From the NCBI GenBank assembly GCA_025363655.1, contig JANYDK010000111.1, positions 1-64,000 of the forward strand: a DNA stretch of 64,000 nucleotides, read 5' to 3'. Both the position numbers and the translations under genes were made by a program. Below the pieces are notes generated by a model. The model did not search any database. It saw only the letters and a program-made list of their open reading frames with translations, and had not been told where the DNA came from. This DNA is from Deltaproteobacteria bacterium. GTDB lineage: Bacteria > Myxococcota_A > Polyangia > Polyangiales > JADJMO01. This document shows, one piece after another, positions 53,984 through 56,863 of this stretch. Every line of letters begins with the position of its first letter. Position 1 is the first letter of the stretch.

Positions 53984-54898
53984 ATGACCACTCCTGCGCT
54001 CCCCTCCGTCGACGTTTCGAACCTCAAGACCTTCGGTGTCATCGGTGCCGGCCAGATGGGCCTCGGCATCGCCCAGGTCGCCGCGCAGGTCGGCCTCGAC
54101 GTGGTCATCCTCGATGCCACCGCCGAGCTCGCCGAGAAGGGCCGGAAGAAGATGGGGGCCTCGCTCGATCGCTTGGTCGAGAAGGGCAAGCTCACCGGCG
54201 AACAGCGCGACGCGCTGATGTCGCGCGTGCGGGTCGCCAACAACGCCTCGGATCTCGCACCCTGCGACATCGTCGTCGAGGCGGCGACCGAGAACACCGA
54301 CGTGAAGATTCGCCTCTTCCAGGCGGCTGACGCGGCGATGAAGCCGGGCGCCATCCTCGCGTCCAACACCAGCTCCATCTCCATCACCAAGTTGGCTGGC
54401 GCCACCAAGCGTCCCGAGCTCGTCGCCGGCATGCACTTCATGAATCCGGTGCCGGTGATGAAGCTCTGCGAGATCGTCCGCGGCGTGCAGTCGAGCGACA
54501 ACACGATCGCCATCCTGACGACGATCGCGCAGAAGATGGGCAAGACGACGATTCAGTCGAAGGACATCCCCGGCTTCCTCGTCAACCGCATGCTCATCCC
54601 CTTCCTCAACGAGGCGTGCTTCGCGCTTCAGGAAGGCGTCGGTTCACCGGAAGATCTCGACCTCGCCGGCAAGCTCGGCCTCAACCACCCGATGGGTCCC
54701 CTCGAGCTCGCCGATTTGATCGGCCTCGACACCTGCCTCGCGATCGCCGAGGTGCTCCACAAGGAGTTCGGCGACACCAAGTATCGCCCCTCGTCGATCT
54801 TGAAGAACCTCGTCGCCGCCGGCTGGCTCGGCCGTAAGACGGGGCGCGGCTTCTACGTGTACGACGACAAAGGGAACAAGCAGCACAGCGCGATTTGA
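53984..54898 (+). CDS. 3-hydroxybutyryl-CoA dehydrogenase
   Basis: 304 residues, cytoplasmic. NAD-binding GAGQMG (21-26) and LDVVILDAT; catalytic region MHFMNPVPVMKLCEIVRG with the conserved His and Asn; C-terminal helical domain with NHPMGPLELADLIGLDTC. Oxidises 3-hydroxyacyl-CoA, normally in butanoate/poly-hydroxybutyrate or fatty-acid metabolism. Single-domain hbd/PaaH type rather than FadB. No Shine-Dalgarno; promoter placement suggests a nearly leaderless message. Intergenic repeat copy F follows the stop. Confidence 0.96.
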   Translation: MTTPALPSVDVSNLKTFGVIGAGQMGLGIAQVAAQVGLDVVILDATAELAEKGRKKMGASLDRLVEKGKLTGEQRDALMSRVRVANNASDLAPCDIVVEAATENTDVKIRLFQAADAAMKPGAILASNTSSISITKLAGATKRPELVAGMHFMNPVPVMKLCEIVRGVQSSDNTIAILTTIAQKMGKTTIQSKDIPGFLVNRMLIPFLNEACFALQEGVGSPEDLDLAGKLGLNHPMGPLELADLIGLDTCLAIAEVLHKEFGDTKYRPSSILKNLVAAGWLGRKTGRGFYVYDDKGNKQHSAI

Positions 54899-55039: not shown

Positions 55040-55105
55040 ACCTCCCGGGACGGGGGCACCTCGTTCCTTTTTTGCATACCTGTCGGCTCTCCGAGGAGGC
55101 CCCCG

Positions 55106-56863
55106 ATGTCGTCGTCGAAAACGCGTGTGACCCCCAGCTCCAACGTCAGCAAAGCAAAGAAGCTCCGCGAGCGTCTCGCCAAGCCCGGACCGGTGCTCGT
55201 CGCCGGTGCCCACCACGGTCTCTCTGGTGTCCTCGTCGAGCGCGCTGGCTTCGATGCCATCTGGGCGAGCGGCTTCGAGATCAGCGCTTCGTTCGCCGTC
55301 CCCGACGCGAACATCCTGACGATGGGCGAGAACGTCGCCGTCGCCGAAGCGATCGACCGCGTGACCGGCATCCCCGTCATCGCCGACTGCGACAACGGCT
55401 TCGGCAACGCCATCAACGTCATCCGCACCGTGCAGGCCTACGAGCGCGCCGGCATCGCCGCCATCTGCATGGAAGACAACATCTTCCCCAAGCGCTGCTC
55501 GTTCTACTCGGGCGTGAAGCGCGAGCTCGAGAGCGCCGAAGAGTTCGCCGGGAAAATCCGCGCCGCCAAGGACGCGCAGCGCGACGAAGACTTCACCATC
55601 ATCGCCCGCACCGAGGCGCTCATCGCCGGCTGGGGGATGGACGAAGCGCTCGACCGCGCTCGTCGCTACGCGCAAGCCGGCGCCGATCTCTGCCTCATCC
55701 ACAGCAAGAGCAAGAAGCCCGACGAGGTCCTCGCCTTCGCCAAGGCGTGGAAAGAGCTCGCCACCGGCGTGCCGCTCGTCTACGTGCCGACGATCTACAA
55801 AGACACCACCGCCGAAGAGCTCCACGAGGCGGGCTTCAAGGTCGTCATCTACGCGAACCACGCGCTCCGCTCGTCGATCAAGGCGATGCGCACCACCCTC
55901 GGCAACATCGCCAAGCAGCACAAGGCTGCGGCCGCCGACGCCGACATCGTCTCGCTCGAAGAGGTCTACGAGCTCGTCGGCGTCAACCTGATGAAAGATC
56001 AGGAAGGCGCCTTCCTCCCCGCCGGGGGTGAACGCGTCAACGCGATCGTCCTCGCCGCGGGTTCGGGCAAGGCCGTCGGCCCGATTGGCGCCGAGATCCC
56101 CAAGGCGATGCTCGACCTCAAGGGCAAGTCGATCCTCGAGCGTCAGGTGGCGACCCTCAACGCGGTCAACATCAAGGACATCGCCGTCGTCCGCGGCTTC
56201 AAGGCCGAGAAGATCAACCTCCCCAACCTCAAGTACTACGAGAACACCGAGTACGAGACGACGGGTGAGGCCATCTCGCTCCTCAAGGCAGCCGCCGAGC
56301 TGACCGCGCCGGCGAAGAAAGACGCCACCGAGCAGCGCCGCTCGCTCGTCCTCTACGGCGACATCCTCTTCGATCGCGCCCTCGTCGAGAAGCTGATCAC
56401 CGCCGACGCGGACATCGCCATCCTCGTCGATCGCACGCTGGCGACCGAGTCCACCAAGGCCGAGCTCGAGGGGCGCCCGCGCCTCGATCTCGTCCAGCTC
56501 GCTACCGCACCGCAAGCCGGACCGCGCGCGATCAGCAGCGAAGAGCTGCCGACGGTGAAGAAGATCGGCCAGCAGATCCCTCTCACCGACGCGCACGCCG
56601 AGTTCGTGGGGATGATCATGATGACCGACGTCGGAGCGCGAAAGCTCCTCGAGGTCTACCAGCGCGCGCTCGAGACCGGCGCCGGCAAGCGCTTCCAGGA
56701 AGCGGCCGACCCGAAGCGCGCAGCCCTCACCGACATCGTCCAGGCGCTCGTCGAAGCGAAGGACGCCGGCATCGAAGTGAAGGCCGTCGAGACCTTCAAG
56801 GGCTGGATGGAAGTCGACACCTTCGAGGACTACCAGCGCGCCTGGGCAGCCGTGAAAGGCTGA
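55106..56863 (+). CDS. PEP-mutase/isocitrate-lyase superfamily domain fused to nucleotidyltransferase
   Basis: 585 residues. Domain 1 (about 20-295) is a PEP mutase-like barrel: metal site DCDNG (94-98), loop EDNIFPKRCSF (123-133), ARTEALIAGWG (167-177, conserved Arg), IHSK (His199). Canonical PEP mutase has EDK at the loop start and Asn-Ser at the end; here they are Asn125 and Cys131-Ser132, and KRC is that of methylisocitrate/oxaloacetate lyases, so the reaction may be C-C cleavage rather than P-C rearrangement. Domain 2 (about 310-585) is an NTP-transferase fold with LAAGSGK (316-322) and PKAML. PEP mutase-nucleotidyltransferase fusions are known in phosphonate capping; no decarboxylase or transaminase is near. 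SD and promoter upstream. Confidence 0.88.
   Translation: MSSSKTRVTPSSNVSKAKKLRERLAKPGPVLVAGAHHGLSGVLVERAGFDAIWASGFEISASFAVPDANILTMGENVAVAEAIDRVTGIPVIADCDNGFGNAINVIRTVQAYERAGIAAICMEDNIFPKRCSFYSGVKRELESAEEFAGKIRAAKDAQRDEDFTIIARTEALIAGWGMDEALDRARRYAQAGADLCLIHSKSKKPDEVLAFAKAWKELATGVPLVYVPTIYKDTTAEELHEAGFKVVIYANHALRSSIKAMRTTLGNIAKQHKAAAADADIVSLEEVYELVGVNLMKDQEGAFLPAGGERVNAIVLAAGSGKAVGPIGAEIPKAMLDLKGKSILERQVATLNAVNIKDIAVVRGFKAEKINLPNLKYYENTEYETTGEAISLLKAAAELTAPAKKDATEQRRSLVLYGDILFDRALVEKLITADADIAILVDRTLATESTKAELEGRPRLDLVQLATAPQAGPRAISSEELPTVKKIGQQIPLTDAHAEFVGMIMMTDVGARKLLEVYQRALETGAGKRFQEAADPKRAALTDIVQALVEAKDAGIEVKAVETFKGWMEVDTFEDYQRAWAAVKG

Follow-up and report, generated by a model that had tools for sequence, protein, structure and literature searches.

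In the 64,000-nucleotide stretch of DNA that we analysed (the window), one gene probably codes for a PEP mutase of divergent type joined to a PntC-like nucleotidyltransferase, an enzyme converting PEP to phosphonopyruvate although its gating loop carries the KRC triplet of a different group of enzymes. From sequence, conservation, fold prediction, the co-occurrence of genes, the structure of operons and the swapping of partners within a genus, we infer which reaction takes place, in which direction, and what product the pathway ends in. On our best reading, the lineage to which the gene belongs (KRC hereafter) turns PEP into phosphonopyruvate as a precursor of phosphonolipids or surface phosphonates. 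The gene is laid out as follows:

55106..56863, + strand: gene for a 585-residue PEP mutase-like/nucleotidyltransferase fusion of the KRC type (open reading frame from ATG, with its translation)
55093..55099, + strand: Shine-Dalgarno-like GAGGAGG 5' of the ATG (read directly from the sequence)
55163..56020, + strand: PEP mutase-like TIM-barrel domain, residues 20-305 (Pfam PF13714, 189 bits; TIGR02320; AlphaFold2 model)
56036..56860, + strand: C-terminal MobA-like/PntC-like nucleotidyltransferase domain, residues 311-585 (PF12804, 51 bits)

The C-terminal domain matches LicC in the PDB (1jyk, E 7e-6); the fold search weighs little here, its match list being filled by the barrel. Alignment shows that PK.ML and GD are retained and that the PntC-type signature LAAGxGxR is altered, with LAAGSGKAV in the window and the Arg replaced. 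At this site (window 56036-56100) the signature Arg is also gone from canonical Polyangiales-type fusions (LAASRGQEL), but the second, separately encoded nucleotidyltransferase that Sorangium has retains it.

The gating loop of the N-terminal domain departs from the PEP mutase motif at two fixed positions:

55472..55504, + strand: gating loop EDNIFPKRCSF, residues 123-133 (direct reading)
55478..55480, + strand: Asn125 codon, in place of the Lys of EDK (alignment)
55496..55498, + strand: codon TGC of Cys131, which aligns with Asn122 of M. edulis PEP mutase (1m1b, 5unc and 2dua aligned)

A sequence-only reading of this DNA had placed EDNIFPKRCSF at residues 123-133 with the Cys131 codon at 55496-55498, and both read as it stated; the interval it gave for the loop, 55484-55504, holds FPKRCSF (residues 127-133) but leaves out EDN, which lies upstream at 55472-55480. 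It had called the loop lyase-type, which is true of the KRC triplet but not of the following SF, found in PEP mutases where lyases have GH, and it had passed over the change of Lys to Asn125.

EDN(X)5CS replaces EDK(X)5NS in all 11 KRC proteins, and to our knowledge the known C-P bond-forming PEP mutases all have Asn where these proteins have Cys. Ten fusions come from the window's order, eight of them full-length in the class sample (window included) and two more from the order's 184 genomes; the homologues in the nine other genomes are full-length and 54-80% identical to the window protein, and EDN[IV]FPKRCSFY.GVKREL is invariant in all ten. Against its nearest homologue, the PEP mutase-like domain has a dN/dS of ~0.19, the value across the whole gene being 0.27. 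A stand-alone KRC homologue from another class of the phylum (L072/L050, genome G510) is 59% identical to the window protein, with the loop EDNVFPKRCSFYTGVRRDL and the sequence EDNVFPKRCSFYTG. Homologues at 36-42% identity, nearly all of them full-length fusions, occur in 29 genomes of the order, and the loops read among these are EDK[IL]FPKTNSF; at that threshold, none of the 184 genomes has both loop types together. Scanning genome contigs gave only three relatives, all myxobacterial or deltaproteobacterial, and scanning a viral collection gave none, while the KRC type was absent from the loops of nine chosen plasmid records, through which alone other phyla were sampled.

Outside the loop, the active site is that of a PEP mutase. 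Residue roles have been described there for Asp58, Asp85, Asp87, Glu114, Arg159 and His190, and Asn122 and Ser123 probably contact the phosphoryl group (PMC7916636). Equivalents in the window, all in invariant columns, include the following:

55304..55306, + strand: Asp67 codon, equivalent to Asp58 of M. edulis PEP mutase
55385..55393, + strand: Asp94-x-Asp96, equivalent to Asp85/Asp87, the Mg2+ site
55490..55492, + strand: Lys129 codon, equivalent to Lys120
55607..55609, + strand: Arg168 codon, equivalent to Arg159
55700..55702, + strand: His199 codon, equivalent to His190, in a PEP mutase-type LIHSK; Glu in lyases

KRC and canonical proteins alike have the equivalents of Asp58, Asp85, Asp87, Glu114, Lys120, Ser123, Arg159 and His190 without exception, so that the Mg2+ and phosphoryl ligands (Asp67, Asp94, Asp96, Glu123, Arg168 and His199) are all in place, and Asn122 to Cys131 is the sole change among the residues with described roles. 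The earlier description of the rest of the domain as PEP mutase-like is borne out, Asn122 excepted, and the two segments it cited, ARTEALIAGWG and LIHSK, are found at residues 167-177 and 197-201. Since Asn122 is credited with a phosphoryl contact, and Thr at that position goes with hydrolysis (PMC7916636), Cys there may not be neutral, and this counts against the mutase reading.

If the protein is a PEP mutase, its N-terminal domain would bind Mg2+-PEP, with the metal held by Asp94, Asp96 and Glu123 as in known PEP mutases and the phosphoryl group by Arg168 and His199; the loop, to which Lys129, Cys131 and Ser132 belong, would fold down over the phosphoryl group, which would pass from O2 to C3 to yield phosphonopyruvate. 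Either the lineage could do without Asn122 and the Lys of EDK, or Cys131 and Asn125 would stand in for them, perhaps helped by Arg130. Phosphonopyruvate decarboxylase would draw the unfavourable equilibrium forward. Either the fused nucleotidyltransferase or a second one would then probably activate the phosphonate with CMP, as an ester, and a CDP-alcohol phosphotransferase could transfer it to a lipid or surface polymer. It is a long shot that Cys131 has a catalytic role of its own, such as carrying a transient thiophosphate or, through its thiol, steering metaphosphate; were it so, the KRC enzymes would form C-P bonds by a distinct mechanism and their clade would survive as an intermediate on the way from Cys-dependent lyases (EDQ..KRCGH) to Asn-type PEP mutases.

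Phosphonopyruvate decarboxylase is present in all ten genomes with a KRC fusion. In six of them (G240, G201, G268, G245, G271 and G582) it consists of separate alpha and beta genes immediately after the KRC gene, and in the other four, which include the window genome, it is a single gene located elsewhere, scoring 467-498 bits; that of the window genome (C123:119832-120917, 467 bits against a cut-off of 312.5) is on another contig than the window. Across the order sample, the decarboxylase occurs in 8/8 KRC genomes, and in 1/128 of the genomes that have no PEP mutase-like gene (Fisher p 4e-12, without phylogenetic correction). In the family of the window genome, the decarboxylase goes with the KRC gene: both are present in two genomes and absent from three. 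A search of eight KRC genomes for a second, normal PEP mutase found none, the KRC gene being the only PEP mutase-like one; other superfamily matches in KRC genomes are EDQ..KRCGH lyases where the loop is readable, and the rest are weak. Genus g72 shows the two mutase types interchanged in nature while the decarboxylase stays the same: two KRC genomes (G280 and G267) and one EDKIFPKTNS genome (G591) have decarboxylases of a single clade, those of G591 and G280 being 75% identical and having flanking genes in common, and the single-gene decarboxylases of KRC genomes group with that of G591. Given that the ligands are kept, that the decarboxylase is present in all ten fusion genomes, that the eight genomes checked have no other mutase-like gene to provide its substrate and that the partner can be swapped, ordinary isomerisation of PEP to phosphonopyruvate is the most likely reaction.

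Just upstream of the fusion gene, on the same strand, is a 3-hydroxybutyryl-CoA dehydrogenase gene (window 53984-54898), and a 78% identical homologue is found near the KRC gene of G240 (L117:6508-7404). With this dehydrogenase near both KRC genes, the locus is syntenic between the window and G240, yet the window lacks the split decarboxylase; we looked in the window for a decarboxylase remnant behind the gene and found none, which counts against the mutase reading. So do the scores of the split subunits, 142 and 174 bits with the phosphonopyruvate decarboxylase models and a nearly equal 128 and 153 bits with those for sulfopyruvate decarboxylase. These scores could indicate that the KRC enzyme makes some other 3-substituted pyruvate (e.g. 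a sulfopyruvate-like compound) for the split decarboxylase. We consider this very unlikely, however, as four KRC genomes have monomeric decarboxylases far above the cut-off, these share a clade with the decarboxylases of canonical mutase genomes, and phosphonates suit the nucleotidyltransferases, both the fused one and those nearby.

In several genomes of the family other than the window's, those of Sorangium and its relatives, a second nucleotidyltransferase with an intact LAAGRGRR lies 3' of the KRC gene and a CDP-alcohol phosphotransferase adjoins it, of a family also found in canonical pepM-ppd-phnW clusters. By analogy, following the logic of PMC6697681, the second nucleotidyltransferase and the phosphotransferase suggest that a phosphonolipid or surface polymer is made via CMP-phosphonate. 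An AEP transaminase is clear in only some KRC genomes (above cut-off in G245, slightly below it for G000 and G240), so these genomes may not all make the same end product. Pathway parts are scattered across several contigs in the window genome.

Profile scores of the window protein are 296.3 bits for TIGR02320, 262.5 for phosphonopyruvate hydrolase and 188 for methylisocitrate lyase. The TIGR02320 equivalog cut-off of 319.55 lies above this and above the range of the KRC proteins (288-301 bits), and since they also lack EDK(X)5NS, we file them as a variant that works like PEP mutase. The best PDB sequence match, 5unc (E 3e-82), is also the nearest fold to an AlphaFold2 model of the domain (Z 40.3, rmsd 1.4 over 289), followed by M. 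edulis PEP mutase (Z 38.3), phosphonopyruvate hydrolase (38.0) and lyases (~34 at best), where Z differences below 1 are ties and fold by itself is no proof of function. Mean pLDDT of the model is 87.5, and the loop block, at 63, is the lowest-confidence part of the barrel, as would be expected of a mobile lid. With PEP mutases (PepM/Ppm, TIGR02320; 1pym/1m1b, 5unc) the KRC protein thus has in common the fold (Z 38-40), 40-50% identity, the ligands, LIHSK, fusion to a PF12804 nucleotidyltransferase and co-occurrence with phosphonopyruvate decarboxylase, the differences being the loop motif and the score below cut-off. Domain order and probable pathway are those of Ppm-PntC fusions (PF13714 + PF12804; PMC6697681).

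A phylogeny of the superfamily had been proposed in the sequence-only reading as a check. With the loop columns masked, the nine KRC sequences in our tree form one clade (90/95), and PEP mutases, hydrolases and KRC proteins together split from the lyases at 100/100. The KRC proteins fall outside the clade of EDK enzymes in both the masked (92/92) and the unmasked tree (95/97), but AU tests rejected none of the alternatives tried, including KRC with the hydrolases or with the M. edulis type (p 0.16-0.34). We offer only as a suggestion that the loop series EDQ..KRCGH, EDN..KRCS, EDN..KRNS, EDK..K.NS may fit this tree.

The same reading had suggested a different reaction for the domain, possibly C-C cleavage or hydrolysis. 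This is unlikely: the other lyase landmarks are missing, the PEP mutase ligands are kept, the decarboxylase is at hand and the nearest fold is a PEP mutase. In one version the PEP mutase frame would house a C-C lyase, or a hydrolase of the oxaloacetate type, that depends on Cys131 as its general acid (cf. methylisocitrate lyase). The KRC triplet and barrel fold are indeed common to the KRC protein and the methylisocitrate lyase/2,3-dimethylmalate lyase/oxaloacetate acetylhydrolase group, Thr169 (ARTE) resembles the lyase ARTD, and in our trees the KRC clade, placed outside the EDK clade, comes closer to the lyase root. However, the lyase group is marked by K[KR]CGH and downstream carboxylate-binding residues, and the KRC protein has no GH after the triplet; its Glu170, His199 and VPTxY match PEP mutases, the lyase counterparts being Asp, Glu and N[ML].E.G.TP. 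The Sorangium KRC genomes have separate EDQ..KRCGH homologues, and a context of decarboxylase and nucleotidyltransferase suits 3-phosphonopyruvate as product, leaving a lyase highly improbable.

Hydrolysis of phosphonopyruvate to pyruvate and phosphate finds some encouragement in the likeness of the KRC protein to phosphonopyruvate hydrolase (TIGR02321; 2dua, 2hrw), which extends to ~46% identity, the segment GFE.SAS.AVPDANIL and the metal site, and the AU test leaves a joint clade standing (p 0.28). Nevertheless, hydrolases have EDK(X)5TS, with Thr at the position of Cys131, and the score of the window protein is well short of the 374.4 bits required by TIGR02321. Gene context differs as well: plasmid-borne Thr-type homologues adjoin aminotransferases and uptake systems and are not beside a decarboxylase, nucleotidyltransferase or CDP-alcohol phosphotransferase, and a KRC hydrolase would compete with the decarboxylase of its own operon. 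We therefore give this reaction very little chance. Least credible of all is an inactive mutase domain retained as a scaffold for the nucleotidyltransferase, for although two motif residues are replaced and the fused nucleotidyltransferase lacks its signature Arg too, the loop and all other catalytic residues are under strong constraint, no other mutase-like gene is present in the eight genomes checked, and a stand-alone KRC protein exists in another class.

The reading of the KRC proteins as PEP mutases bears on how phosphonate producers are counted. Major surveys have screened strictly for EDK(X)5NS when looking for producers (PMC6697681, PMC8931226, PMC12723261), and the Nat Commun 2019 survey dropped proteins without EDKXXXXXNS as presumed non-Ppm, with only 22 fused proteins in the discarded set (PMC6697681); KRC fusions would fall into that set. 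Since such a filter would discard a lineage whose gene context and remaining catalytic residues both fit, the phosphonate capacity of Sorangium and its kin is probably undercounted. KRC is also a natural substitution at the very residue used to explain mutase versus hydrolase chemistry, which makes the role of Asn122 directly testable.

The stand-alone KRC protein (L072:7964-11818) adjoins a 2-hydroxyacid dehydrogenase-like gene in an exopolysaccharide region, which also has, beside it, a fusion of a nucleotidyltransferase with a CobD-like PLP enzyme. A search of its genome (G510) found no phosphonopyruvate decarboxylase, and a different branch after phosphonopyruvate is possible there.

Further loops among the relatives are EDNLFPKRNS, EDNQHPKRNS, EDAPYPKRNS and EDKRWPKRNS. 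The EDAPYPKRNS PEP mutase-like protein (L079:8963-12377), without the Lys after ED, is followed by a phosphonopyruvate decarboxylase-like gene (301 bits, slightly below cut-off) and a PsrA-type iron alcohol dehydrogenase; this is probably another phosphonate cluster that EDK(X)5NS would miss. EDNQHPKRNS domains are found within long multidomain proteins (L076:7568-10804 and L077:7582-9987), the former fused to an acyl-CoA ligase-like domain, and the EDNLFPKRNS protein (L074:3560-6723) adjoins a 2-hydroxyacid dehydrogenase-like gene and an ATP-grasp-like gene. A PEP mutase above the TIGR02320 cut-off (L129) has the loop EDKVGLKKNSL, without the usual FPK, and the EDKRWPKRNS domain lies inside a giant non-ribosomal peptide synthetase frame (L084:1-9997, - strand).
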